64,000 nt of DNA, taken from assembly GCF_037975245.1 (NCBI RefSeq), contig NC_092576.1, positions 29,862,611 to 29,926,610 of the forward strand, read 5' to 3'. Below, piece by piece: positions 12,595-43,389 of this stretch (the first letter of the stretch is position 1; each line of letters begins with the position of its first letter). A program made the position numbers and the translations under genes. The stretch comes from Apostichopus japonicus. Lineage: Eukaryota; Echinodermata; Holothuroidea; Aspidochirotida; Stichopodidae. The notes beneath the pieces are model-generated. The model ran no database searches, had not been told where the DNA came from, and was given only the letters and a program-made list of their open reading frames with translations.

Positions 12595-12727
12595 AAACAT
12601 GTTGGTGTAAAAATTTTGGGTCGTAAAAATATTTTGGTCCGAAAAAAAGTTGGTCCGAAAACATGTTGGTGAAAAATTGTGGTGCAAAAAATTTGGGCTA
12701 AAAAAAATTACGAGTCCCAATAAATGG
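12595..12727 (+). repeat. degenerate short repeats of a GTTGGTCCGAAAA type
   Basis: Variants of TTGGTCCGAAAA, GTTGGTG.AAAAATT and TTGGGCTAAAAA follow one another with changing lengths directly before the perfect 16-bp array. It looks like a run of decayed microsatellite-like units. Confidence 0.5.
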
Positions 12728-13369
12728 TCGGAACGTAGAGACGTCGGAACGTAGAGACGTCGGAACGTAGAGACGTCGGAACGTAGAGACGTCGGAACGT
12801 AGAGACGTCGGAACGTAGAGACGTCGGAACGTAGAGACGTCGGAACGTAGAGACGTCGGAACGTAGAGACGTCGGAACGTAGAGACGTCGGAACGTAGAG
12901 ACGTCGGAACGTAGAGACGTCGGAACGTAGAGACGTCGGAACGTAGAGACGTCGGAACGTAGAGACGTCGGAACGTAGAGACGTCGGAACGTAGAGACGT
13001 CGGAACGTAGAGACGTCGGAACGTAGAGACGTCGGAACGTAGAGACGTCGGAACGTAGAGACGTCGGAACGTAGAGACGTCGGAACGTAGAGACGTCGGA
13101 ACGTAGAGACGTCGGAACGTAGAGACGTCGGAACGTAGAGACGTCGGAACGTAGAGACGTCGGAACGTAGAGACGTCGGAACGTAGAGACGTCGGAACGT
13201 AGAGACGTCGGAACGTAGAGACGTCGGAACGTAGAGACGTCGGAACGTAGAGACGTCGGAACGTAGAGACGTCGGAACGTAGAGACGTCGGAACGTAGAG
13301 ACGTCGGAACGTAGAGACGTCGGAACGTAGAGACGTCGGAACGTAGAGACGTCGGAACGTAGAGACGTC
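12728..13369 (+). repeat. perfect tandem array, 16-bp unit, about 40 copies
   Basis: The unit CGGAACGTAGAGACGT repeats head to tail over 642 bases, which is 40 copies plus two bases, without a visible substitution. Across each junction it forms GACGTC, a palindrome, and each unit has three CpG sites. Such homogeneity in a decaying neighbourhood implies recent expansion or an assembly artefact. Confidence 0.95.
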
Positions 13370-25270: not shown

Positions 25271-25605
25271 CCAAGTCATCATTCATTCACTTCCCATGCT
25301 CCATTAATCCCCCATGCTTTATTCCTCATCGTGTCCCATTAATCTACCATACCCAATTCATTTAACACACCATTCACATACCTCCATTCATTCACCTACT
25401 AACCCCACCCACCTTTTGCCATCCACTGATCTACCAAATATACTTATTACAATTTAGTCAGTCCAACCTTAATTACAACCTTTACTCACTCTATTGCAAT
25501 TCAACACACCCAGCCTTTATTTTAGTCCGACATAAGTTTCTAAAAGAAACATGCCCAACTTTTTGGTTCCTTGCTTTAGCAAAAGGAACCTATGCAGTCA
25601 GGTTG
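25271..25605. other. no recognised feature
   Basis: C/A-rich, pyrimidine-heavy spacer without gene signal. Confidence 0.3.
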
Positions 25606-25740
25606 GCGTGTGTGTGTGTGTATGTGTGTGTGTGTGTACTTGTAAGACCTGTCAATCGGGGATAATCGTATGGATACACACCTTCCAACTGGGGATACAC
25701 CCCCAAATGGGGATATCCCCATTTGTCAAATCCCCATTTT
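25606..25740 (+). repeat. GT microsatellite plus GGGGATAC/GATATCCCC motif block
   Basis: A (GT)n run is followed by ACTTGTAAGACCTGTCAAT and then by AACTGGGGATACACCC and ATGGGGATATCCCCATTTG. The last words match the core of the satellite inside the downstream gene. The first part recurs inverted near 40945-40995. Confidence 0.6.
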
Positions 25741-26734
25741 CAATGTGCAAAACCATCCACAACATCGCAGAAGTGCCTCCTTTAATTTTCTAAATGATTA
25801 AAAAATTTCACCACTTTCATACTTCAAATCCGCATGTCTGGTGTGTTTGTTTAACAAAGATACAGTAGGTGTCTCAGCTCTGATTACTATAGCGCCCTCA
25901 GCTTTATACACACGGATGACGCATGTCCCCAGTTAACAGGTTAAGAGAGATATACACGTTTTTCCCGGTTGACTACTACAGCAGCAAACATACTTCCCCA
26001 GTTGGATACCAAAATGCCAAATACACATTAGTGTCTGCTTGTATATGCAGTGCTTAATACTATTTGACCATGTTGTCATCACTATACATGACATTGAACA
26101 TGTGGGAACTGGGAACCTGAAACGTACAGTACCATTTGAAGATTACTGAATGGTAGGATATATCTTTTACTTGTTTTCAATCCATTTTGGTGATATTCCC
26201 TTGGTATATGTGGCTTTCATCCGTAGGTTCTTCCCCATTTTCATAGTAATACACCCGAAAGTAACTTGGAAAAGCTGTGCCAGGCCTAACAAGCTATATT
26301 CAGTGTAGGCTACTTGTTTTCTATTAGGATATAGTGTAAAGCAAGTTATTACTAGACCTAACAGTATTACTATTAGCCTAACATCTCTAATATGCAACTA
26401 AACTCAGGCTTTATGTGATGTAGGATAGGTAGGCCTAGCCAATCAAACCAATTGTAAGATAAAATTGCCTAGCCCTAGAAAAGAGAAAGTATTTGGAGAG
26501 GTTTTTTTTTACATATATGCTAGGTTTCTTTGAACTTGAGGTGTCTATGCATTGTTCAAATACTAATAATTAAATAATTTTATCAAGTTTCATTGGTGCA
26601 TGATGATTACGGTAAGTTAAGAAGAAGTCATCTCTTAGGAATATGTATTTGAAACTACTATATAGACATATTGTTGGAGTAACCATATTGTACATAATAT
26701 TTAGCAAATATGTTTTCATTGTTGATTTTCACAG
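25741..26734. other. upstream region of the SET gene
   Basis: No coding exon is supported. A GTAAGT donor at 26612 and the acceptor ending ACAG at 26734 suggest a further 5' leader exon ending at 26611, but its start and the promoter could not be located. Confidence 0.3.
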
Positions 26735-26870
26735 ATTTTCCACAGATTCTATGGACAAGTACGAGGCAACATTATTGTTAGCACTTTCTGCAGTGATATG
26801 TTGCATCCTTTTTGTTTTCCTAATTTTTGTGGTGGTGTATATTAAAGAATATCATATATAAATCGGCAGT
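26735..26870 (+). other. 5' leader exon with a 36-residue membrane-like micro-ORF
   Basis: An acceptor (TTTTCACAG) precedes this segment and a GTAAGT donor follows at 26871. Within it, ATG at 26751 opens a frame ending at 26861. Its peptide starts MDKYEATLLLALSAVICC and is almost wholly hydrophobic after residue 6, as in a single membrane helix. Splicing to the acceptor at 27209 would place this short frame upstream of the SET-protein ATG. It could act as an upstream ORF or encode a real micropeptide. The splice path is inferred. Confidence 0.4.
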
Positions 26871-27217
26871 GTAAGTATACATTGGTGACTTTATTATTTG
26901 ACCCTAAAATTCACACAAGCTGTTGCATTTCTACCTGTCAGTTCAAATATTAAAAGCAAACTGCAAAGGCTATACTACAAACCTTCCCTAAACAGACAGT
27001 TTGTTGTGCATCTACATCAATTAAATCACCATGTGGTAGTTATGTAGATTCTTAACGGTACCTTTTTACAATTTAGTCAGTTAACAATCCCTTGATTGTC
27101 AAAGTCACTGTTTACTGCAATGAACATTTTATCTTTCTGGTTTGACGTCTAAAGATAAATGACATTGTAATAATTATTTGTTTTATTTATTTCCTCTCTT
27201 TATAATTAGTGTTAAAG

Positions 27218-30200
27218 ATGACATCTGGGCAAAAGATTAACAAACGAGTAAGTAAATTGATTGCTTTTTTTCTGTAATATACCTATGAATCTCTGTAGTC
27301 AACACAGTTATTAATTATTCTCTGTTACAGTATAAGACTACTCTTGTAATGTATGCGTTCTATGTTTACTTCAATTCTAGGTAAGTTCACGCCTGCAGCT
27401 GCGCAATGAGAAGTATCTACCTCTACATGCAGATCCTCCTGGGTTTATGGTGAAGTTACTACCAGAAAAAGGTATGTGAAGTGCTGCACATTGTTGGATC
27501 TATTCTGACTATACATGTGTAAAAATCATTAAATAATTGCAGAGAGGTCATGTTTTTTTATGGTTGGTCCCCCACGCTATCTCTTTTTCTCATTGGAAAA
27601 CTTACCTTCATTTATGTAATTTGGATTGCAACATCCCCAACCCTTATTGAAATGCTTGTCTACATATCATCCACCAATTTTATCAACCTCAGGTGTAAAA
27701 GATTGACTATAGAATTTCTCAGGCATTGTTGCATTGATTTATACTTTCTATTAATTTCTGAATAATACCAACTTCCTATTTGCTGATAGGTCGAGCAGTT
27801 TTTACAACAAAAAATGTTTTACACGGGGAACCCTTACTTGCATATGGCGGAGAGCTAATTTCTGGGGAAGCTGGGGAAAGACGCGAGGCGAGAGAACAAA
27901 GTGGATTCAGATATTTTTTTACCTGGAAAGGAAAACAACTGTGGTGAGTACTAAGAGTTCTCTGTATACATGCTACACATATATGTTAGTGGTTTAATAC
28001 ATAAATATCATGTATCTGTTTTGTCCTTGTCGCCCTGGAATTTTACTATATTTGCATAATATCAATTTCTTCTGAGTTTTATGAAACACAGCAAGTAATA
28101 TAGGAGATATACCTGCATCATGGGATAGTTTTTAATGTTATATCATGTAGTGAAATTTTTTGACAAGAAGTTAATAAATTGTGAGACAAGTTTATATATT
28201 GCATGGATTCTGGTACACGCTGTTATAAGTTTGTAATGCTGTATACTTTACAAAAAAGCATATAGTACCAGAGGAGGAGATACACCTACAATTGTAATAC
28301 ATAATGTAATATCATATGGACTTTTGTATTGTTCCGTTTCATTCAATTGTATAGTATACAATACAACATACAGTTTATACCATGTATCAGATACACCTTC
28401 AATTGGGGATACACCTGCATTTGGGGATATCTTTCATGTTACATGAGAACATATCCAGATTTGTTGAAATGAGTCTTTCACTTGTGATACATAATGTTAT
28501 ATCATATGGATTTGTGTATTGTTCCATTAAATTATGTTGTATAGTATACAATACAACATACAATTTATACCATGTATCAGATACACCTTCAATTGGGGAT
28601 ACACCTGCATTTGGGGATATCTTTCTTGTTACATGAGGACATATCCAGATTTGTTGAAATGAGTCTTTCACTTGTGATACATAATGTTATATCATATGGA
28701 TTTGTGTATTGTTCCATTAAATTATGTTGTATAGTATACAATACAACATACAGTTTATACCATGTATCAGATACACCTTCAATTGGGGATACACCTGCAT
28801 TTGGGGATATCTTTTATGTTACATGAGGACATATCCAGATTTGTTGAAATGAGTCTTTCACTTGTGATACATAATGTTATATCATATGGATTTGTGTATT
28901 GTTCCATTAAATTATGTTGTATAGTATACAATACAACATACAGTTTATACCATGTATCAGATACACCTTCAATTGGGGATACACCTGCATTTGGGGATAT
29001 CTTTCATGTTACATGAGGACATATCCAGATTTGTTGAAATGAGTCTTTCACTTGTGATACATAATGTTATATCATATGGATTTGTGTATTGTTCCATTAA
29101 TTCATGTTGTATAGTATACAATTTACTACATACAGTTTATACCATGTATCAGATACACCTTCAATTGGGGATACACCTGCATTTGGGGATATCTTTCATG
29201 TTACATGAGGACATATCCAGATTTGTTGAAATGAGTCTTTCACTTGTGATACATAATGTTATATCATATGGATTTGTGTATTGTTCCATTAAATTATGTT
29301 GTATAGTATACAATACAACATACAGTTTATACCATGTATCAGATACACCTTCAATTGGGGATACACCTGCATTTGGGGATATCTTTCATGTTACATGAGG
29401 ACATATCCAGATTTGTTGAAATGAGTCTTTCACTTGTGATACATAATGTTATATCATATGGATTTGTGTATTGTTCCATTAAATTATGTTGTATAGTATA
29501 CAATACAACATACAGTTTAAACCATGTATCAGATACACCTTCAATTGGGGATACACCTACATTTGGGGATATCTTTCATGTTAATAGAAAGATATACACA
29601 TAATATGTCCCCATATGATATAACATTAATGTAACACAAGTAAATGACTCTTTTCAGCAAGTCTGGATATGTCCTCATGTAAAATGAAAGATATCCCCAA
29701 ATGTAGGTGTATCCCCAATTGAAGGTGTATCTGATACATGGTAAAAACTGTATGTAGTATTGTATACTATACAACATGAATTAATGGAACAATACACAAA
29801 TCCAAATGATATAACAAGTCAATGACTCATTTTAACAAATATGGATATGTCCTCATGTAAAATGAAAGATATCCCCAAATGTAGGTGTATCCCCAATTGA
29901 AGGTGTATCTGATACATGGTAAAAACTGTATGTAGTATTGTATACTATACAACATGATTTAATGGAACAATACACAAATCCAAATGATATAACAAGTAAA
30001 TGACTCATTTTAACAAATATGGATATGTCCTCATGTAAAATGAAAGATATCCCCAAATGTAGGTGTATCCCCAATTGAAGGTGTATCTGATACATGGTAA
30101 AAACTGTATGTAGTATTGTATACTATACAACATGATTTAATGGAACAATACACAAATCCAAATGATATAACAAGTAAATGACTCATTTTAACAAATATGG

Positions 30201-33200
30201 ATATGTTCTCATGTAACATGAAAGATATCCCCAAATGTAGGTGTATCCCCAATTGAAGGTGTATCTGATACATGGTATAAACTGTAGTATTGTATACTAT
30301 ACAACATGAATTAATGGAACAATACACAAATCCAAATGATATAACAAGTAAATGACTCATTTTAACAAATATGGATATGTTCTCATGTAACATGAAAGAT
30401 ATCCCCAAATGCAGGTGTATCCCCAATTGAAGGTGTATCTGATACATGGTATAAACTGTATGTTGTATTGTATACTATACAACATGAATTAATGGAACAG
30501 TACACAAATCCAAATGATATAACAAGTAAATGACTCATTTTAACAAATATGGATATGTTCTCATGTAACATGAAAGATATCCCCAAATGTAGGTGTATCC
30601 CCAATTGACGGTGTATCTGATACATGGTATAAACTGTAGTATTGTATACTATACAACATGAATTAATGGAACAATACACAAATCCAAATGATATAACAAG
30701 TAAATGACTCATTTTAACAAATATGGATATGTTCTCATGTAAAATGAAAGATATCCCCAAATGTAGGTGTATCCCCAATTGAAGGTGTATTTGATACATG
30801 GTATAAACTGTAGTATTGTATACTATACAACATGATTTAATGGAACAATACACAAATCCAAATGATATAACAAGTAAATGACTCATTTTAACAAATATGG
30901 ATATGTTCTCATGTAAAATGAAAGATATCCCCAAATGTAGGTGTATCCCCAATTGAAGGTGTATCTGATACATGGTATAAACTGTAGTATTGTATACTAT
31001 ACAACATGATTTAATGGAACAATACACAAATCCAAATGATATCACAAGTGAAAGACTCATTTTAACAAATATGGATATGTTCTCATGTGACATGAAAGAT
31101 ATCCCCAAATGTAGGTGTATCCCCAATTGAAGGTGTATCTGATACATGGTATAAACTGTAGTATTGTATACTATACAACATGAATTAATGGAACAATACA
31201 CAAATCCAAATGATATCACAAGTAAATACTCATTTTAACAAATTTGGATATATGTTCTCATGTGACATGAAAGATATCCCCAAATGTAGGTGTATCCCCA
31301 ATTGAAGGTGTATTTGATACATGGTATAAACTGTATGTAGTAAATTGTATACTATACAGCATGAATTAATGGAACAATACACAAATCCAAATGATATCAC
31401 AAGTAAATGACTCATTTTAACAAATTTGGATATATGTTCTCATGTGACATGAAAGATATCCCCAAATGTAGGTGTATCCCCAATTGAAGGTGTATTTGAT
31501 ACATGGTATAAACTGTATGTAGTAAATTGTATACTATACAACATGAATTAATGGAACAATACACAAATCCAAATGATATCACAAGTAAATGACTCATTTT
31601 AACAAATTTGGATATATGTTCTCATGTGACATGAAAGATATCCCCAAATGTAGGTGTATCCCCAATTGACGGTGTATCTGATACATGGTAAAAACTGTAT
31701 GTAGTATTGTGTACTATACTACATGATTTAATGGAACAATACACAAATCCATATGATATAACATTATGTATCACAAGTGAAAGACTCATTTCAACAAATC
31801 TGGATATGTCCTCATGTAAAATGAAAGATATCCCCAAATGTAGGTGTATCCCCAATTGAAGGTGTATCTGATACATGGTATAAACTGTATGTAGTAAATT
31901 GTATACTATACAACATGAATTAATGGAACAATACACAAATCCAAATGATATCACAAGTAAATGACTCATTTTAACAAATTTGGATATATGTTCTCATGTG
32001 ACATGAAAGATATCCCCAAATGTAGGTGTATCCCCAATTGAAGGTGTATTTGATACATGGTATAAACTGTATGTAGTAAATTGTATACTATACAACATGA
32101 ATTAATGGAACAATACACAAATCCAAATGATATCACAAGTAAATGACTCATTTTAACAAATTTGGATATATGTTCTCATGTGACATGAAAGATATCCCCA
32201 AATGTAGGTGTATCCCCAATTGAAGGTGTATTTGATACATGGTATAAACTGTATGTAGTAAATTGTATACTATACAACATGAATTAATGGAACAATACAC
32301 AAATCCAAATGATATCACAAGTAAATGACTCATTTTAACAAATTTGGATATATGTTCTCATGTGACATGAAAGATATCCCCAAATGTAGGTGTATCCCCA
32401 ATTGACGGTGTATCTGATACATGGTAAAAACTGTATGTAGTATTGTGTACTATACTACATGATTTAATGGAACAATACACAAATCCATATGATATAACAT
32501 TATGTATCACAAGTGAAAGACTCATTTCAACAAATCTGGATATGTCCTCATGTAAAATGAAAGATATCCCCAAATGTAGGTGTATCCCCAATTGAAGGTG
32601 TATCTGATACATGGTATAAACTGTATGTAGTAAATTGTATACTATACAACATGAATTAATGGAACAATACACAAATCCAAATGATATCACAAGTAAATGA
32701 CTCATTTTAACAAATTTGGATATATGTTCTCATGTGACATGAAAGATATCCCCAAATGTAGGTGTATCCCCAATTGAAGGTGTATCTGATACATGGTATA
32801 AACTGTAGTATTGTATACTATACTACATGATTTAATGGAACAATACACAAATCCATATGATATAACATTATGTATCACAAGTGAAAGACTCATTTCAACA
32901 AATCTGGATATGTCCTCATGTAACATGAAAGATATCCCCAAATGCAGGTGTATCCCCAATTGAAGGTGTATCTGATACATGGTATAAACTGTATGTACAG
33001 TAGTAAATTGTATACTATACAACATGAATTAATGGAACAATACACAAATCCAAATGATATCACAAGTAAATGACTCATTTTAACAAATATGGATATGTTC
33101 TCATGCGACATGAAAGATCTCCCCAAATGCAGGTGTATACCCTATTGATGGTATACATTGTATATTGTGTTGTAGATTATAGGCTTACAGCAATATGAAA

Positions 33201-36200
33201 TTAAAAATATGTAGAAACATGCATAAGATTGAATGTCACACTTAATGACAATTGTGTTGCCGACGTTGGCCCAGTGGCTGCTGACCACAAGTTTGCCGCA
33301 AGCGACATGCCGCCCTCACACCACCAGCTTGCCGCTGCGGTGTAAGGAAGGCTCGCTGCTGCCGTCATGCTGCCTCTCTGCTGTCGGCGGCTTGCTTTCT
33401 GGGCTCTTGAAGCTTGTTCTTCACTTCATTTTATTTTGTTTCCTCTATCTGTATACAGCCGAGATGCCTCTATTGAACCAAAAAGAAGCCCCAGGCTCGG
33501 AAGACTAGTGAATCATGGCTGGAAAACACAAGTCAATAGCAAAATGAAAATTGTTGAAGGACCTGACTCAAAGCCAAATCTTGTCTTATTTGCGTTGAAA
33601 GACATTCCAACTAACTCTGAGATCCTGTATGATTACGGCATTCCAGATTCTTTCAAGTTCCCACAACCACCTGAATATGTTTTCCAACTAGAAAATGAAA
33701 AAGTGGCTGAAGGCCCCCCGACTGCTTCTCCAGACGATGTCATCGATGACACGGAGGTCACAAAAGAAATGAGTGGTGAATCAGGCAGTGACTCAGAAGT
33801 TCCAGATTCTACCCCTGACAATGATAACACAAAAGATGACTACTTACCAGGATTGCCTGTGACAAGGTCTTCGAGGACCATTTCAGAAAGTATGAATTCT
33901 GAGAGAACACAGTCTAACATACAAAATGACGCAGCTTCATTAGACACCGATGACACGGAGGTCACAAAAGAAATGAGTGGTAAATCAGGCAGTGACTCAG
34001 AAGTTCCAGATTCTACCCCTGACAATGATAACACAAAAGATGACTACTTACCAGGATTGCCTGTGACAAGGTCTTCGAGGACCATTTCAGAAAGTATGAA
34101 TTCTGAGAGAACACAGTCTAACATACAAAATGACGCAGCTTCATTAGACACAGATGATATGGAGGTCACAGAAGAAATGAGTGGTAAATCAGGCAGTGAC
34201 TCAGAAGTTCCAGATTCTATCCCTGACAATGATAACACAAAAGATGACTACTTACCAGGATTGCCTGTGACAAGGTCTTCGAGAACCATTTCAGAAAGTA
34301 TGAATTCTGAGAGAACACAGTCTAACATACAAAATGACGCAGCTTCATTAGACACAGATGATATGGAGGTCACAAAAGAAATGAGTGGTAAATCAGGCAG
34401 TGACTCAGAAGTTCCAGATTCTATCCCTGACAATGATAACACAAAAGATGACTACTTACCAGGATTGCCTGTGACAAGGTCTTCGAGGACCATTTCAGAA
34501 AGTATGAATTCTGAGAGAACACAGTCTAACATACAAAATGACGCAGCTTCATTAGACACAGATGATATGGAGGTCACAGAAGAAATGAGTGGTAAATCAG
34601 GCAGTGACTCAGAAGTTCCAGATTCTATCCCTGACAATGATAACACAAAAGATGACTACTTACCAGGATTGCCTGTGACAAGGTCTTCGAGAACCATTTC
34701 AGAAAGTATGAATTCTGAGAGAACACAGTCTAACATACAAAATGACGCAGCTTCATTAGACACAGATGATATGGAGGTCACAGAAGAAATGAGTGGTAAA
34801 TCAGGCAGTGACTCAGAAGTTCGAGATTCTATCCCTGACAATGATAACACAAAAGATGACTACTTACCAGGATTGCCTGTGACAAGGTCTTCGAGAACCA
34901 TTTCAGAAAGTATGAATTCTGAGAGAACACAGTCTAACATACAAAATGACGCAGCTTCATTAGACACAGATGATATGGAGGTCACAAAAGAAATGAGTGG
35001 TAAATCAGGCAGTGACTCAGAAGTTCCAGATTCTATCCCTGACAATGATAACACAAAAGATGACTACTTACCAGGATTGCCTGTGACAAGGTCTTCGAGG
35101 ACCATTTCAGAAAGTATGAATTCTGAGAGAACACAGTCTAACATACAAAATGACGCAGCTTCATCAGCAAAAGATGACATGGAGGTCACAAAAGAAATGA
35201 GTGGTGAATCAGGCAGTGACCCAGAAGTTCCAGATTCTATCCCTTACAATGATAACACAAAAGATGACTACTTACCAGGATTGCCTGTGACAAGGTCTTC
35301 GAGGACCATTTCAGAAAGTATGAATTCTGAGAGAACACAGTCTAGCATACAAAATGACGCAGCTTCATTAGACACAGATGATATGGAGGTCACAAAAGAA
35401 ATGAGTGGTAAATCAGGCAGTGACTCAGAAGTTCCAGATTCTACCCCTGACAATGATAACACAAAAGATGACTACTTACCAGGATTGCCTGTGACAAGGT
35501 CTTCGAGAACCATTTCAGAAAGTATGAATTCTGAGAGAACACAGTCTAACATACAAAATGACGCAGCTTCATTAGACACAGATGATATGGAGGTCACAAA
35601 AGAAATGAGTGGTAAATCAGGCAGTGACTCAGGCAGTGAAGCAGGCAGTGAATCCAGCAGTGACTCCGTCAGTGACTCAGAAGTCTCAGATTCTGACACT
35701 AACTATGATAACCCACAAGATCACTACTTGTTCGGATTGCCTGTGACAAGGTCTTCCAGAAGCATTGCAGATGCATACAACAGAGAACATAGAAGGAAAC
35801 CGGTGAAAGAGGTGGGAGATGATGGCAGTTCTGACTCTGGAGATAATACCACTGGTAATGAAAGTAAGATCTATGTAATGAGAACCAATAACGACGGAGA
35901 AAAAAGATGTTATGACAAGGTGGCATATTGTTTGTTCTGCTCAAAGCCACAGAAGAAATTGCAAGTTCACCTTGAACAACATGAAACCGAGATGGAAGTT
36001 GGACAATACCAAGCAGAGAGATCAAAGCAACAGAGGCTCATGCTCCTGACAAAGCTACGGAACAGAGGGAATCATAAACATAACTACGAAGTGATGGAAG
36101 AAGGAAAAGGAGGTCTTGTTGTTGTTTACAGGCCAAACTATTTTGCAAACCCCAATGACTACCAACCTTGCTGCCAGTGCTTAGGCTGGTATGCAAGAAC

Positions 36201-39200
36201 AGAAATGTGGAAACATAGATGCCTCTTCAGTACCAAGGATAAAGATGGTATAACAACAAAGAAGAGAGTAAACAATGTGCAAGCTGGCAGGCTTTTGTTG
36301 CCACCAGCAGTCAATACACAAGTACCTGACTTACTTCATCGCATTTTGGCAGGCTTAAGACATGATTCTGTGGCATTATGCATCAAAAACGACAAGTTGA
36401 TAGTGGATTTGGGAAAGAAGTTATCTTTCAAGCTGGCACACGATGAAGAAAACTTCAACAGCATTAGATGTAAATTGCGTGAAGTTGCTAGGTTGGTATT
36501 AGAGTATAGACTAACCACTGGCATAGATGATGCAGGCCTTGCAGCTCTCATTTCGCCAACTGCCTTTGATGATGTTTTGCATGCTGTGAGGCAAGTCTCT
36601 GGATTTAACAATGACACACATCTCTTCCAAACGCCCAGCTTAGCTTTAAAGCTTGGACATTCTTTGAAGAAAGCTGCAAACATATTGCTGAGCAGAGCAA
36701 TAAAAGAATCAAGCTCTACAATTGAAAAGTCCAGCAGGGATTTCATCACCCTTTGTGAGAAAGAGTGGGACTTCCAAGTTTCTTCCCATGCACTTCGAAC
36801 CATGTACCAACAGAAGAGGAACAACCCAAAGATGCTTCCACTCACATCTGATGTCGTCTCATTATCCACCTACTTGCGCAAAGAAACTGAAACCTACTTG
36901 GAAAGGTTGGATAGTGAATTGCCTGAAGTAGACAAGATGGATTTTTGGAAGAAGTTGAATAAAGTCATCTTGACTCATCTCATTGTATTTAACCGCAGAA
37001 GACAGGGTGAAGTATCAAAGATGACTGTAGATGACTTCAATCAAGTCAAGAAAGGGGAATCACATCTGGTGGAAGGCCAGATGGAGATGATGGCACAGTG
37101 GGAACAAGAGCTGGTGAAAGTTCTATGGAGAGTTGAGGTTGTAGGCAAGAGAGGAAGGACTGTCCCTGTTCTGATGACTGACTTTGTAAAGTCTAGCATC
37201 GACACTCTCATGAAATATCGAAATGGAGCTGAAGTCAGTGAAACAAACAAGTATTTATTTGCAGTAGCTAAGTTGGACACCAATTCACATATCAGAGGGA
37301 GTGACTGCTTGCGTGAGCACTCAAATTTGTGTGGGGCAAAACAGCCAGCGTTACTGAGATCAACAAGATTACGGAAGCACATTGCAACTATGTCACAACT
37401 AATGAATCTGCGAGACAATGAACTTGATGTTCTGTCAAACTACATGGGACACGATATCCATGTCCATCGCAACTTTTATCGATTACCAGATTGTGCACAG
37501 CAAGTTGCCAAGATTTCGAAGATTCTTTTTGCCATGGAAGGTAAAGGCGGGAACCCTGTCCAGTTGCTTGGAAAGCAAAGAGCATTGATGAGTTACAGAT
37601 TCATCCAAATGAAGGTAAATCGACACGAGGTTTGACCTAACACCTAAAGTAGATGTACAGTTTACTTTGTTATCTATGAGTTAGTCAAATTTGTATATAA
37701 GAGAGATTGGTTTTACATTCTTAATACAGTAGTTTTCATTCTTGGGCTAATAGCTATTTGTTCGTCTGTTACATCAAATCTGTGCCCTGTATTATTGGTA
37801 CAGTATATTCGTTTATTAAGTAGCACGGGAAGAATAGTAAATGATGTGATTTTAAACATGAAGCTAATAAAGTGAAGTTGCTGTAAAATAGTCAAAGACT
37901 TATTTCGTTTATTGACAGAATTAGAAGTCAACCAGTCAATTGAGGAGTCCTCTGGTGAGGAGGATAGTGATGATGATTATCAGCCTGATCTGCCTGCTGG
38001 AAAAGGTAAGGTAGTAGCATATAAAGAACAATTGCCATTACAACATATTATTATATTATTTAACTCGAGTATTTTTTAACAGAGGGAAATATGTAGTATA
38101 TACTAGCCAAACAACATCTATCACAACAATCATTACATCTCATTTGTATCAAATATTTAATAATAACTGGCAAGCTTTGTTTCAAATTTTAGACTTCATA
38201 CAATGTTCATGCATGACCATCATATACAACTTTAATAGATGTGTTGTTTGGTGGTAAAAATAGATTGAATTGTTCAATACTACAACAGGAAAGAATTCAT
38301 GTGTTATCATGCAGTATCAAATGAACACAATTTCAGTTACAACATTTTAAAACTAGTAAGTTCCTGGATCATTCTAAAGTGGCTGACAACATAGTTCATT
38401 TTCAGTGAGGCATCACTCATCTTGAAGTATGAATGTCATTGTAGTTAAAATCAATTGCATTGATATATCCTGGAGAAATATTTGATTGACCCCATTTTAG
38501 GATATTAGTTTAGAGTGCTATAATTTGGCACTGACTAAAAGATGAATATTCTTCAGTGCTGTAGGTATTGACACCTGCTGTCAGAAAGGGAAGAAATTCT
38601 TTGCTAATGTTAGTTAAATGTGTGTCTGTTTTGCAGTGCAAAAGAATGATGTTAACCAGATCTCATCAGCAGAATCAGAAGGATGTATCAAAAGAGGTAA
38701 GTAAGATGGGAAGTTTAGAACAATGGCAGATATTTGTTGTGAAATATCCATCACTTCTACTTTTTCATATGACAAAGACTGTTTCTGAGCTGCATGGAAT
38801 ATGCAGAAAGAGCACAAGAAACTTGAAGGAATTAGAAACTTAAAACAGAATGTTATCAAGTAGACACAAAAGCATTCAGGGGTACTATAACATGCTAAGA
38901 AACAAGTTTTTATCAAGATGCATTTAGCCTGACTGGAACTAGTATATTAATATTAGTTGGGGAATTTTTCAATTTGATGGAAAATCAATGTTTGCAATAG
39001 ACATCAATACGTTTTATAACTAAATTGTATCATTTTTGCCTTATGAAGGTCAAAAGCGTAAAATGCTGGAAGGTTACGAGGAAAAGAGGAAGACACCTAC
39101 AAGAAAGAAGTGGACAGAGCTGGAACGAACTGCCGTATTGAAACATCTTCATTCTTTTATTGAAAAGAGAAAGCTTCCCGGTAAGAGGGAAATTGACAAA

Positions 39201-39311
39201 TGTCTTGAAGCTGAAAAATGCCTTCGAAACAGAAGTTGGAAGAATGTCAAGGACTTTGTTAGAAACCATATTAAAACCAGAGCATCCACTTCTAAATCAT
39301 TCAAGTACTGA
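27218..39311 (+). CDS. SET / tyrosine-recombinase-like / SANT fusion protein, seven coding exons
   Basis: Coding exons: 27218-27247, 27381-27471, 27790-27943, 33459-37540, 37919-38005, 38637-38696 and 39049-39311. All have GT-AG borders, and the phases add up to 4767 bases (1588 residues plus stop). Domains in order: a KMT5A-like SET domain from about residue 40 (GRAVFTTK, YGGELIS, RLGRLVNHG, SEILYDYG); about ten 68-residue acidic repeats; two zinc-finger-like segments; a tyrosine-recombinase-like domain; an acidic linker; and a Myb/SANT-like end (RKKWTELERTAVLKHL...KLPGK...RSWKNVK). The usual NHS of SET enzymes is NHG here, so methyltransferase activity is uncertain. A nuclear chromatin role is plausible but inferred. 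The start is the first ATG in frame after an acceptor at 27209. The long exon stays open past its donor to a stop at 37635, so an alternative shorter end is possible. Confidence 0.8.
28258..33160. repeat. intronic satellite in two opposite-orientation blocks
   Basis: Units of about 190 bp containing TTCAATTGGGGATACACCTG and TTTGGGGATATCTTT run on the + strand from 28258 to about 29590 (seven clear units and one decayed). The same unit, at about 172-192 bp, continues inverted to 33160 (about twenty units, the last decayed). It lies wholly in the intron 27944-33458. Two 0.55 kb stretches starting near 31.41 and 32.15 kb are almost identical, offset by 736 bp, marking a recent internal duplication. 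The open frames across it are by-products of repetition. Confidence 0.92.
33755..35770 (+). repeat. in-frame coding minisatellite, 204-bp unit
   Basis: The unit begins at GAGGTCACAAAAGAAATGAG and recurs every 204 bases (33755, 33959, 34163, 34367 and so on), giving nine full copies and a diverged tenth. Each encodes 68 residues: an acidic serine/aspartate run (SGSDSEVPDS), DDYLPGLPVTRSSRTISESM, and a polar end. Copies differ by only a few bases. The last copy adds extra GS-D units (35620-35690). Unit length divisible by three keeps the frame during expansion. Confidence 0.95.
35880..37540 (+). other. zinc-finger and tyrosine-recombinase-like domains of the fusion protein
   Basis: First a C2H2-like finger (CLFCSKPQKKLQVHLEQH), then an RNRGNHKHN...GKGGLVVVYRP segment and a second metal-binding pattern (CCQCLGWYARTEMWKHRC). 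The recombinase-like core follows. Near 36990 is FNRRRQGEVSKMTVDD (first catalytic-arginine box). Near 37362 is STRLRKHIAT (second arginine box, without the usual His before it). Near 37447-37482 is MGHDIHVHRNFYRL (GH and catalytic-Tyr position). This pattern occurs in recombinase-like proteins of animal genomes. Activity is unproven because one box is altered. Confidence 0.7.
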
Positions 39312-40380
39312 TTGTTCTTTTCTCTACCTTGACAGTCTCACTTTTATTCAAAACATTGTTTTCAAAGGTTATCATAGATTTAAATAAGTTTATGCATCGC
39401 TTTGACTACCTGTAGCTCTTGTTAAATTTTACTGTTTTGCTGTTTTGAGTGTTACTGCTAATTTAATAGTTAACATCATAGTACCAAAAGTTTAAGATAA
39501 GGACATCCTTATGGGTAACAAATAGTTATTTCATTATGAAATGAGACATCAGAGAAAAACAAGGAGTAAATAGAACACTAGAAGGGAGGAAACCTTTCAA
39601 GTTTCAAGTATATAATATATTTACATGCAACAGATGGCATGGAGCTTTAAAATGCATATATACAAGTAAACAATGTGTATGACATACAGATTGATCTGAA
39701 CTAAAGAACTGACACATGAAAGATTTGAAACAACAACCAGAATACTGTTTCATTATTGTCTATACAATCAGGTTGATTCCATTGAGTTTAGTTCAAGCTG
39801 GTCTTGTTCTGTTCTACTGTTACATATAAAAGATAAGTGTTTTGTTATTGTTTGTTAGTTTTTATTTTCTTTTGTTGCACCTTTCCCGTAAACTGTTATT
39901 CGGAACTTAAGGATAAATGCTCCTTACCTTAAATACATAATGCTCCTCAACCTTGAAAAGTTCTGGAAAGTTTTTTTTCCCTCCAGTATGTCAAACTTGA
40001 AAGTTTAAGAAACTTTTCAACTACAAGTAATCATGCAGTTAGATCAATGATACCTACAGGTGCTTGGACCCAGAAAGATAATGCTCTCAAACATGTTAAA
40101 ATATCATGTGAAATATTTAATGCATGAAGACTCATCACTCATGAAACATAGTTTCTCTAATAACTTGCCAAGAATTTTACTGGTTTTATCACAACTATAA
40201 CAAGAAAAGAAATATAATATGTGATGTTATCAGTGCATGATTGTGAATGATGATAGGATCATAGTTATGTCCTTGGAATCTCTTCAGATACAGAAAACCT
40301 AACATTTGTTACCCAGTATGACTGCAAACATCTTTTGCAACATTGTTTATGTAATAAAGGCATTAAGAAATGCATTTCAT
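39312..40380 (+). other. 3' untranslated region and polyadenylation site of the fusion gene
   Basis: After the TGA at 39309-39311 no further exon is evident. AATAAA at 40353-40358 is followed about 20 bases later by a T/GT-rich stretch (TGTATTGTTTTATTT), as expected for a cleavage site. Earlier weaker signals exist, so the true end may vary. Confidence 0.5.
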
Positions 40381-40689
40381 TGTATTGTTTTATTTCTTCA
40401 TTTGTCTATTATTGATCATTAAGGGTATACTTAGTGCATGCTTTCAGTCACCCCAATGCCCCTCCCCCTGTATTTGTTGTATTTTTTTTTTGGCTTTTAA
40501 GGAGCTAGATAAATTTATATGAGTATCTAGATGCTACTCCAAGATGAATCATTAGATTCACACTTCTGATACCATCATTCCAAACAAATGTTGTAATTAT
40601 TCATATTTATTTGTGAAAGTTCTCACATCTTTAGTAAGTAATAGCAAGAGAAGGGCAGTTTCTCCAAGAGTTCATAGTATAAAAGTATT

Positions 40690-43085
40690 AGTGGGGATAT
40701 CCCCCCTTTCATTGTAGTGGAACAAACTATGGAGTGTGTCTACATTTTCACTGTTTAGTGTCAATGTCCTGTGTATCCCCAATTTACTAGCTATAACACA
40801 TACAAATATGCTGGTAAAAACCTAAGGAAACTTAAACATCTCTGTATGCCATACACATGAGGGAACCTCAACAGCAATAAGTGTGACTTGTTTAGGCTGA
40901 AAGTTACTAAACGAAGAAGTCCCCCATTCCCTGGTTCCAAACCCATATCCCCAATTGACAGGTCTTACAAGTATGTGTGTGCGTGTGTGCGTCTGTGACA
41001 CTTGCTTGGGTACGCTCTACCTCAAAAAGGGAATGTTGGATTGAGGCCAAACTTGGACTATAGATCCGCCATATGGAGAAGGTGTGCCCTAGGTCACCAA
41101 AGGTCAGTTATGGTCCAAAAACAGAAAATATTAAAACTGCAATAACTCCCAGTGCCAATGTGCGACAAGATTGATATTTTGGGAAAAGTTGAACTGGTTA
41201 AAGGAACATTTTCAAATTTAATGGTCATGTGATCCGAGGTCACTGAAGGTCAATTAATGATAAAAAACTAGTATTTTTGCGATAACTTGAGAACAAAATG
41301 TCCGTTAGGGTTGGGAGTTGCTTCAATGTAATCCAATTGTCGACCCGCATCTGGGTGACCCTTGACCTCAATTTTACCTCTTGTGACCTTTACATGTTTT
41401 TGGGGATGTTTACAGTTTTGATGCTATTTTGAGATGTCAAAGGTACCTTCTGATCATAAATGTCAATAGGTTGACCCCTGTGTGACCTTTATGTGCGAAG
41501 TTATATGGGGTGAAAGTTTTTCGGTCGGAGTTAGGATGGTTGTACAGACTTGTCGTTTTGTTTTTTGGAATCAGGAGATTAAACTACATCTGAAACCAAG
41601 GTCAAAGGTCACATTAGAAAAAATGTGCTTAGTTTGGGAGGAAACGAACAAAAAAGAAAATGTATGGTTTTGATGCTAGATTTGGATATCAAAGGTACCT
41701 TCCGATCAAAAATGTCAATTGGTTGACACCCGTGTGACCTTCGTGTGCGAAGTTATGCGAGGTCAAAGTTTATTTTCAGACATTTAATGCAACAACTCCC
41801 AGTTCCAAGGTGTGACATGGTTGATATTTTTGGACAAGTTGCAAATGGTCTAGTGATCCGAGGTCACCAAAGGTCAATTAATGTTAAAAACCTAGTATTT
41901 TGGGGGTAGAAAATGGGCAAAGAAAAAAATGTTGGAATTTGTATAGTTTGATGCTCTAATTTAGGTTTCATCAATCAAAAATGTCAATAAGTTGACCCAA
42001 GGTGACCTTTGTATGTTACGTTACATGAGGTCAAAGTTAATTCTCAGACATTTAGTGTAATAACTCCCAGTGCCAAGGTGTTACACAGTTTATATTTTGA
42101 GACAAGTTGCAAATGGTATAGGGGAATATTTTCAAACTTAACGGTCATGTGATCCGAGGTCACCAAAGGTCAGTTAATGATAAAAAAGTAGTATTTTTGC
42201 GATAACTTGAGAACAAATTGTCTGTTAGGGTTGGGACTTGCTTCAATGTAATCCAATTATCGACCCGCATCTAGGTGACTCTTGACCTCAATTTGACCTC
42301 TGGTGACCTTTTCGTGTTTTGTGGATTTTTACAGTTTCGATGCTATTTTCAGATGTTAAAGGTACCTTCTGATCATAAATGTCAATGGGTTGACCCCTGT
42401 GTGAAGTTATATGAGATCAAAGTTAATTTTCAGACATTTAATGCAATAACTCCCAGTGACAAGGTTGATTTTTTTGGACAAGTTGCAAATGGTATAGGGG
42501 AATATTTTCAAACTTAACGGTCATGTGATCCGAGGTCACCAAAGGTCAGCTAATGTTAAAAAAGTATTTTGGGGGGAGAAAATGGGCAAAGAAAAAATGT
42601 TTGAATTTTTACAGTCATGCTCTATTTAGGTCTCACCGATCAAAAATGTCAATTGGTTGACCTCCGGGTGACCTTTGTGTGTGAAGTTATGTATACAAGT
42701 TCCAAGTTAATTTTCAGACATTTAATGCAATTAAATCTCAATGCTAAGGTGTGACATGGTTGATATTTTGGGACAAGTTGTGAATGGGGTGGTGGAACAT
42801 TTTGAAACTTAAAGGTCATGTCATCTGAGGTCACCAATGTTATCATATCTGTTGACACGCTTGTAGGTCTCTTATATTTCTTACATTTTCGACGCCATAT
42901 TTAGCTCTCGAAAGTGCCTTTTGATCCAAATCCGATCACATTTTGTGATCACAAAAGTGTTGGCTATATTGTTTGTTTCTTTATGGGAACATGTAGGACC
43001 ACAATTACTTGGACTATTTGAGCCCAATCTTGCTTGATAATATTATGTGTATTGTCATATACCCCAAGCAAGGAACCACAGTGCC
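40690..43085 (+). repeat. repeat cluster with AGGTCA pairs and a ~918-bp long period
   Basis: 41195-41392 and 42113-42310 are near-identical (GTGATCCGAGGTCAC, GATAACTTGAGAACAAA, CTTCAATGTAATCCAATT), about 918 bp apart. Shorter related copies occur near 41840, 42500 and 42790. AGGTCA-N4-AGGTCA pairs occur at 41091, 41237, 41861, 42157 and 42533. The left part (40696-41060) carries GGGGATAT, CCCCAATTGACAGGTCTTAC and a GT-rich run, related in inverted form to 25606-25740. The right end near 43060 has CAAGCAAGGAACCACAGTG. Frames inside it are not genes. Confidence 0.75.
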
Positions 43086-43389
43086 CTTGGGCTCTTGTTT
43101 CCCATAGACACCAAATAGGGCTTACCTATTAACCAAATCAAATGTTATTATTAAAAGTCTATTATATTTCCACTCTATTCTATTGACACTATTGTTTTTC
43201 TTTACTTCTTTTCCAGACGGTTTGTGGAGGTTGATCTGACAGATTTACAAACAGAGGGACGGCTAACATGTGAACATACAGAGAGACAAATGGACCAACA
43301 GACAAATAAACAGATGAACAATAACGGTGTTATGTCCCCTCTTCACAACTTTGTCGGCAAAGAGATAATAAGTGCTTTGCATAAGGACA

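Follow-up and report, generated by a model that had tools for sequence, protein, structure and literature searches.

Cryptons, CryptonA and CryptonI among them, are eukaryotic DNA transposons whose tyrosine recombinase (YR) has an R-H-R-Y active site, and a circular intermediate has been proposed for them (PMC3212892). In the accessible part of that paper, Crypton ends are described without terminal inverted repeats (TIRs), having 4-6-bp terminal direct repeats or none, and the animal members are described as having neither a C-terminal domain nor terminal repeats. According to the accessible part of another report, in Phytophthora, HarbingerS and MuDR transposons have acquired a gene for a SET histone methyltransferase (PMC12730594). 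Endogenous nimaviruses carry telomere-repeat-specific YRs with (TAACC)n as target, and majanivirus genomes measure 278-401 kb (PMC10871703); the term 'SET domain' does not occur in the available portion of that text. Transposons with a YR, transposons with a SET domain and YRs that target microsatellites have each been published already.

We consider it probable, from comparison of sequences, that the window, i.e. the whole stretch of 64,000 nucleotides of Apostichopus japonicus DNA analysed here, contains one copy of a large DNA transposon family, whose gene would encode a KMT5A-like SET domain, a zinc-finger YR and a basic SANT/Myb-like tail. The window family shares the YR catalytic residues with Cryptons, but it has 27-bp TIRs, and a related family with 31% YR identity, lying between GTAT tracts, has an imperfect TIR. 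Compared by description, SET-YR elements also differ from Cryptons in their SET domain, tail, introns, length of 15-53 kb and GT microsatellite target. Like the Phytophthora elements, as far as their source describes them, they are DNA transposons with an acquired SET; but those belong to oomycetes, whereas here SET and YR are predicted in one polypeptide of an animal. Harbinger and MuDR carry DDE transposases. Nimaviral YRs, in the part of the source at hand, are similar in that they carry a zinc-binding domain, insert into simple repeats and belong to large elements; they differ in their target, (TAACC)n as against GT/GTAT here, and in belonging to full viral genomes. Starships, on a partial source, are also large elements with a tyrosine recombinase, but they are fungal and have many-gene cargo, and no fungal Starship recombinase model was among the Pfam matches of 19 members of our family. 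The combination of SET and YR in a transposon was not found in a search of open-licence literature.

The seven-exon gene and its protein

A sequence-only reading of this DNA had predicted a seven-exon gene at 27218-39311, which is borne out: the exons sum to 4767 nt, corresponding to 1588 aa plus stop, all seven join in a single frame, and GT-AG borders are found at six of six introns. The parts of the predicted gene are as follows, in positions of the window.

27218 to 27247, + strand: exon 1 with start codon (splice border read)
27381 to 27471, + strand: exon 2 (splice border read)
27790 to 27943, + strand: exon 3, N-terminal half of SET (splice border, PDB and Pfam matches)
28292 to 33152, no strand assigned: satellite arrays of intron 3, with a 190-bp unit at 28292-29583 and a 182-bp unit at 29636-33152
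33459 to 37540, + strand: exon 4, with the SET C-terminal half, linker, zinc-finger motif and YR (open frame 33346-37635)
33459 to 33639, + strand: C-terminal half of SET (PF00856 up to profile end 105), ending at residue 152 of the joined protein
33745 to 35632, + strand: coding minisatellite (204-bp unit, 9.3 copies) that forms the acidic, Ser-rich linker
36169 to 36222, + strand: zinc-finger-like motif CxxC...HxC, invariant in family alignment A1
37000 to 37479, + strand: YR catalytic core (invariant residues in family alignments)
37919 to 38005, + strand: exon 5 (frame join)
38637 to 38696, + strand: exon 6 (frame join)
39049 to 39311, + strand: exon 7, SANT/Myb-like basic tail and stop codon (frame join)

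Exon 4 lies inside a stop-to-stop frame of 1429 codons, and its donor was placed at 37541 because the frame into exon 5 then stays open. In intron 3, the 182-bp array is inverted relative to the 190-bp array. The domain order of the 1588-aa protein is KMT5A-like SET, minisatellite-encoded acidic linker, zinc-finger motif with YR, and conserved tail. All exon borders are kept in a twin copy on contig C3, which has a 1108-aa open frame and a shorter 204-bp linker array of fewer repeats. Because both frame and splice sites are conserved in this twin, we take the gene model with its predicted splicing to be real. Other frames of at least 90 codons in the window element are satellite frames, exon-4 antisense frames and two short ones (one of 92 codons that overlaps exon 6, and an antisense one of 110 codons close by), and no second long coding frame was recognised among them.

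The joined N-terminal part (178 aa) matched the Pfam SET profile PF00856 over profile positions 1-105 with an E of 7.6e-13, and its 14 best matches among PDB sequences were all KMT5A/SETD8/SET8 (best E 3.8e-16). The SET profile match in the genome at G000:C16:29896073-29896249 is the C-terminal half in the window. The full profile match and these closest relatives place the predicted domain in the KMT5A group. Its active-site motifs are NHG and YDYG; it differs from KMT5A/SETD8 in that the NHS motif reads N-H-G, and in its predicted fusion to YR. Among 16 readable element SETs, the motif is N-H in seven and N-D in nine, a split which puts catalysis by SET in doubt, and the second Tyr of Y-D-Y-G is present in all 16. 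The SET pairs listed gave dN/dS ratios of 0.25-0.68, mostly at high dS.

Tyrosine recombinases are recognised by the residues R, K, (H/T)xxR, H and a nucleophile Y, with the spacing H-x8-Y. This pattern is found in the window family, where the catalytic codons begin at 37000 (R), 37147 (K), 37372 (R), 37450 (H) and 37477 (Y), and all five residues are unchanged in every one of 21 aligned relatives and throughout the 19 rows of alignment A1. In the YR family, Thr or another residue takes the place of the box II His, and T435 is nearly invariant. Searches of Pfam, PHROGs and PDB sequences with the window protein did not find the recombinase, with no match to PF00589 in Pfam, and a single-protein query of viral contigs found no relative. 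At family level, Pfam YR matches at E up to 0.1 were obtained for four of 19 members, all below cut-off; the best (4.6e-5) lies outside the catalytic residues, and only that of L043 (E 0.0044) spans them. One of the 19 matched the phrog_1 integrase (E 3.9e-4). Profile alignment of the catalytic domain with ten phage YRs gave an E of 0.0065 and a score of 24.1, a modest margin above 40 shuffled controls (at most 20.8), and in this weak alignment the catalytic residues are in register. With the whole protein, hhalign gave no significant match to phage YRs, and the top full-set alignment lay outside the catalytic residues. A single-sequence AlphaFold2 model of the window YR (mean pLDDT 35.7) was discarded.

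Because none of the five residues varies among the 21 relatives and the weak phage alignment is in register, the assignment of this domain as a tyrosine recombinase is, in our judgement, right. The HMM check proposed by the sequence-only reading succeeded for SET (E 7.6e-13) and failed for the recombinase in Pfam and PDB sequences with the window protein. Taken literally, this missing recombinase match is an outcome which that reading had named as refuting, but we judge it to be outweighed by the family-level evidence. The reading's central claims both hold: one gene unites a KMT5A-like SET with a tyrosine recombinase, and the C-terminal SET half is on the same 4-kb exon as the recombinase. 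The tail fared otherwise: called SANT-like, it had no Pfam match and no match among PDB sequences at E up to 10, and a counterpart is recognisable by eye in a family of 45-53-kb elements. As for the zinc-finger motif, a single family member has a match to zf-C2HC_2, at E 0.0027 and below the cut-off of that model.

Members L042-L044, which look Crypton-like, show clear homology to the SET-YR group (hhalign E 9.5e-44). Recent YR pairs gave dN 0 and dS 0.034 (L116/L117), 0.004 and 0.024 (L116/L118), and 0.001 and 0.022 (L125/L042); between families synonymous sites are near saturation, and dN/dS is not taken as proof.

Element borders, target and related families

Judging from the twin copy and the terminal repeats, the gene is part of a 15.3-kb transposable element and not a host-gene fusion. 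What the sequence-only reading missed is that the gene is the mobile element's own, the element being inserted in a GT microsatellite, and is no joining of a recombinase to a host chromatin gene.

25608 to 25637, + strand: GT microsatellite (period 2, 15 copies), left target tract
25638 to 40972, + strand: SET-YR transposable element, 15.3 kb (identity step against the C3 twin, and TIRs)
25638 to 25664, + strand: left TIR, 27 bp, 26/27 identical to the right TIR
40946 to 40972, - strand: right TIR, 27 bp (alignment to the left TIR)
40973 to 40992, + strand: GT-rich right target tract (sequence at the element end)

The alignment score of the two TIRs was matched by none of 500 shuffles. Window and C3 twin are 99.1-99.6% identical inside the TIRs (25638-28280, 35700-37540 and 37541-40970 compared) and 93.7% and 96.1% identical outside them, and the recombinase part (313 aa) has one genome match at 100% identity, on contig C3. 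Near-identical copies in different surroundings demonstrate, as far as sequence can do so, that the element has been mobile.

A GT/GTAT microsatellite tract was found at 24 of 28 element end flanks, compared with 55 of 10288 background 40-mers (0.5%); the tract rule is failed by four flanks, one of which, the single end on C16, has no GT-type run at all. By dinucleotide counts, which also assign the four flanks without a tract, the GT strand is found at 5/5 left ends of the window family and 6/6 A-ends of the 45-53-kb family, and the CA strand at 6/6 B-ends of the latter and 8/8 right ends of the 52% family. Each end type has one strand orientation. For the copies on C8 and C19, right ends only were located. 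These flanks suggest YR-mediated integration with microsatellite DNA as the crossover core, and a target duplication would be hidden inside the microsatellite. The earlier suggestion that the protein could target DNA sites finds support in the form of the element's preference for microsatellites, and modification of nearby histones by the SET-YR protein is something that we infer.

The pairing of SET and recombinase, treated as a single case by the sequence-only reading, is recurrent in the genome. At least 118 genome matches were obtained with the recombinase part; 127 of 171 candidates were scored in this search and 150 of 272 in the SET search, so that absences are not firm. The linkage count used 109 of the 118 YR rows, with nine small fragment rows left out. 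Among the matches listed, 59 of 75 YR matches of at least 850 nt have a same-strand SET match upstream within 45 kb, and any SET match within 45 kb is found for 1.2% of random positions in an approximate control that assumes 23 equal contigs of 30 Mb. For the other 16 of the 75 matches listed, SET may be dispensable or may have escaped the search. At three loci, the C-terminal half of SET and YR lie in a single uninterrupted frame, with lengths of 1429 in the window and 951 in the C3 twin (equal in SET and YR searches) and 1484 aa at a C15 locus, whose YR identity is 41%.

Six copies of one family measure 45-53 kb and agree at 100% in their end pieces; the TIR of this family is weak, 11 of 500 shuffles reaching its score. 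In the 44.9-kb copy on C9, of which 27.1 kb were read, 22 frames of at least 110 codons are present; two are the gene's own exons, and ten of the 20 others, scanned as foreign frames, gave no Pfam match at E 0.01.

Proposed transposition mechanism and alternatives

In the mechanism that we propose, YR most likely binds the terminal inverted repeats and would excise the element, probably as a circle, in which the two ends, once joined, would make an inverted-repeat site with a short core at its centre. This core would then be recombined by YR with GT/GTAT microsatellite DNA, and such core exchange would account for the choice of target, the constant orientation and the lack of any recognisable target duplication. 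SET probably methylates a histone or other chromatin protein at donor or target sites, which may make chromatin accessible for transposition or adjust how far the element is silenced. A wider reading, offered tentatively and with considerable doubt, is an animal superfamily of large TIR-bounded YR transposons with a KMT5A-type methyltransferase in the recombinase polypeptide; the GT repeat would be a degenerate attachment site, the target would be chosen by core homology, and chromatin would be written by the same protein at integration.

Two alternatives are about equally improbable. SET and YR may be separate genes that give separate proteins in one element, the fusion being an artefact of the gene model: splicing is known from prediction, in the 45-53-kb family the SET C-half and YR are up to 22-31 kb apart, and in many families the two are on different frames or exons. 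However, the uninterrupted frame at window, twin and the diverged C15 locus, and the preservation of all splice borders in the twin, are against separate genes. The element may also be moved in trans on its TIRs by a DDE transposase, with YR and SET as cargo or accessory. DDE transposons typically have TIRs, a short duplication would go unseen within the microsatellite, and animal Cryptons are reported, in the accessible part of the source, without terminal repeats (PMC3212892). But no other long coding frame was recognised in the window element, and the single strand orientation per end type fits core-directed recombination; moreover, YR is the one gene in every family examined, although these families were found by YR and are not independent in this respect.

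A domesticated gene, captured long ago to serve the host and duplicated in the genome, would account for long open frames with introns and for the many copies with open frames, but we think it very improbable in view of the precise TIR-bounded copies in different surroundings, the microsatellite target, the identical end pieces of the six large copies, and a twin that is 99.1-99.6% identical with unrelated flanks. Slightly less probable still is that the mobile unit is the whole of 25560-43099, over which window-twin homology extends, and that short units sharing its ends, hundreds of them (687 left and 865 right ends were counted genome-wide), arose from it by deletion. This was our first window-twin reading, and it was rejected, since divergence is greater in the outer parts (93.7% and 96.1% identity) than in the interior, whose borders are TIRs lying within the GT tract; other SET-YR families also end in GT tracts of unrelated surroundings. 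The short units are now read as the unoccupied repeat, and the 12 fully read ones (L005-L016) were picked for close-set ends and give no gauge of repeat occupancy. Least probable of all is an origin as a large endogenous DNA virus, intact or as a relic, that had captured a SET gene; the parallel would be the endogenous nimaviruses, whose YR-bearing members also enter microsatellites according to the part of the source available (PMC10871703). Although the six copies of 45-53 kb would suit such an origin, the window element has 15.3 kb and one gene, and the ten of 20 foreign C9 frames scanned had no Pfam match.

Under the preferred reading of a SET-YR transposon, our results suggest a mobile element carrying its own chromatin writer. 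If this is true, a histone writer lies inside the mover protein, and one could test directly whether the element edits chromatin where it inserts. Integration into GT repeats in a fixed strand orientation would mean that microsatellites serve a eukaryotic tyrosine recombinase as landing sites. In addition, there is a practical warning, that KMT5A-like gene models found in many copies in genomes of this kind can be transposons.

Borders and mobility of the element

A search of the genome (671,581,487 bases, 35 contigs) returned at least 118 matches to the 313-aa recombinase part, one of which, on contig C3, was 100% identical, and among the matches listed many groups of equal-scoring copies were spread over different contigs. 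The window and this C3 twin align from 25560 to 43099. Identity is 99.1–99.6% within 25638-40970 (three compared segments, repeat arrays excluded) and 93.7% and 96.1% outside, and the change coincides with 27-bp terminal inverted repeats (TIRs; 26/27 identical) within a GT tract. Because the identity shift sits at these TIRs inside the GT tract, we place the SET–tyrosine recombinase (YR) element at 25638-40972. At ≤3 mismatches the two TIRs occur at 11 genome sites, comprising the window pair, the twin pair, four singles with 0–1 mismatch and three with 3 mismatches. In the twin gene, every splice border is kept and the frame is open across 1108 aa. Comparison of these copies indicates that the element is mobile.

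Beyond these borders lies an abundant repeat, with 687 left and 865 right ends in the genome (≤3 mismatches) against 0 sites for the reversed pattern, and the element has entered this common repeat at its GT tract in the window and the twin alike. The common repeat (also at loci L005-L016) has a left-end hairpin and an internal GT tract, and inserts without target duplication; at two insertions with empty paralogues, the empty site holds a pentamer, either TTTTT or TTTAA, with one paralogue of nine showing TTTA instead. The repeat may be a Helentron/DINE-like element.

Repeat features of the window
12727-13369, 16-bp unit, about 40 copies, 100% matches
25560-25637 and 40973-43099, common repeat outside the element
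28292-33152, intron 3, two inverted satellite arrays of 190- and 182-bp units
33745-35632, coding minisatellite, 204-bp unit

The SET–recombinase gene

The gene model of the sequence-only reading was borne out, with seven exons of predicted splicing, 4767 nt, one stop at 39311 and 1588 aa. Its KMT5A-like SET domain was likewise recovered: residues 1-178 match Pfam SET across the entire profile, and the 14 top-ranking PDB sequences are without exception KMT5A/SETD8/SET8. The 1429-codon open frame around exon 4 contains the SET C-half, the 204-bp minisatellite, a CxxC/HxC motif and the recombinase. The minisatellite differs in length between window and twin with the frame kept (1588 versus 1108 aa); the intron 3 arrays are stop-free in several frames and shorter in the twin.

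Among YR matches of at least 850 nt, a SET match lies upstream on the same strand within 45 kb in 59 of 75, and at that distance on any side or strand in 62; random positions have such a neighbour in 1.2% of cases. When all rows used are counted (109 of 118 recombinase match rows), these numbers are 69 and 74. No YR match lay within 45 kb of 29 of the 112 SET matches listed, some of which (L096-L098) are by eye clearly other SET genes. SET C-half and YR share one stop-free frame in the window and twin, and likewise at C15 locus L080, from a family of 41% YR identity, where it spans 1484 aa; since that locus holds both in one frame, the fusion does not depend on splicing alone. This genomic pairing indicates that SET and YR belong together.

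In 15 readable element SET exons besides that of the window, the domain starts with S[V/I]D, preceded by intron-like sequence, which would fit a single old SET capture with the intron position kept. The SET active-site motif is variable (N-H in 7 and N-D in 9 of 16 readable element SETs), and dN/dS was uninformative, dS being high.

Contig C17 (37.2 of 671.6 Mb) carries 26 of the 109 YR rows, many stop-broken. This contig may be a graveyard, either heterochromatic or sex-linked. Three SET matches exactly 40,027 bases apart (G000:C13:9229189, 9269216 and 9309243), with no YR match within 45 kb, are a recent 40-kb tandem duplication carrying a SET gene.

The probable recombinase and the microsatellite target of the element

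R334, K383, R458, H484 and Y493 (numbered from the translation of 36001-37539) are invariant in the window protein and 20 relatives, and all five agree across the 19 family proteins of alignment A1. Their order and H–Y spacing follow the tyrosine recombinase pattern, with Thr replacing His at the box II position. Against ten phage YRs, the catalytic domain gave E 0.0065 with catalytic residues in register and a score of 24.1, versus a maximum of 20.8 among 40 shuffled controls; the whole-protein comparison with phage YRs gave no significant match. Of the 19 members, 4 gave a hit to Pfam PF00589, each under the cut-off and only one spanning the catalytic residues. Of the profile hits anticipated for the window protein, SET was found but PF00589 was not. 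The catalytic residues and their register argue that the protein is very probably a tyrosine recombinase. Three remoter YR genes, L042 (C7:17233634), L043 (C9:14170499) and L044 (C6:17743888), with 21–22% identity to the window, look Crypton-like; only L044 has an upstream SET match within 45 kb, and the three may represent a state preceding SET capture.

A strict GT/GTAT tract rule holds for 24 of 28 end flanks from three families (the window family and those of 52% and 35% YR identity), versus 55 among 10288 40-mers drawn as background from the window and C3 flanks. The remaining four flanks comprise C6, the C13a B-end and C12, which have interrupted GT-type runs, and a single end on C16, which has none. 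Each type of end keeps a single strand. In the window family, 5/5 left ends carry GT and both tract-located right ends carry CA; in the 35% family, 6/6 A-ends carry GT and 6/6 B-ends CA; in the 52% family, 8/8 right ends carry CA. Several target tracts are part of the common repeat, while those at C13a, C13b, C14 and two on C17 are not. Outside the 28 flanks, the 31% family (C16, about 3922189-3939689) has GTAT tracts on either side and an imperfect TIR equalled by 0/500 shuffles; the 35% family has a weak TIR, with 11/500 shuffles scoring as high. When a site-specific tyrosine recombinase reads a core that is asymmetric, it does so through a fixed strand and inverted arms. The same arrangement here favours the YR as mover, and the element is probably moved by its own YR.

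The 35% family has six copies of 44.9–52.9 kb whose end pieces are 100% identical. In the 27.1 kb read of the 44.9-kb copy there are 22 frames of at least 110 codons, two containing exons of the gene itself; a Pfam scan of 10 of the other 20 gave no match at E 0.01.

Relation to known elements

Cryptons use the same enzyme class, but animal Cryptons are reported to lack terminal repeats (PMC3212892), unlike the SET–YR element with its TIRs. Other papers mention SET genes in Phytophthora HarbingerS and MuDR elements (PMC12730594) and report insertion of nimaviral YRs in telomeric microsatellites (PMC10871703). A literature search, with Repbase outside its scope, found no published report of a transposon combining SET and YR. 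Thus, the parts are known separately and their combination is apparently new within the literature searched. That the SET domain acts on chromatin, to serve either transposition or silencing, is about as likely as not, and we propose it tentatively.
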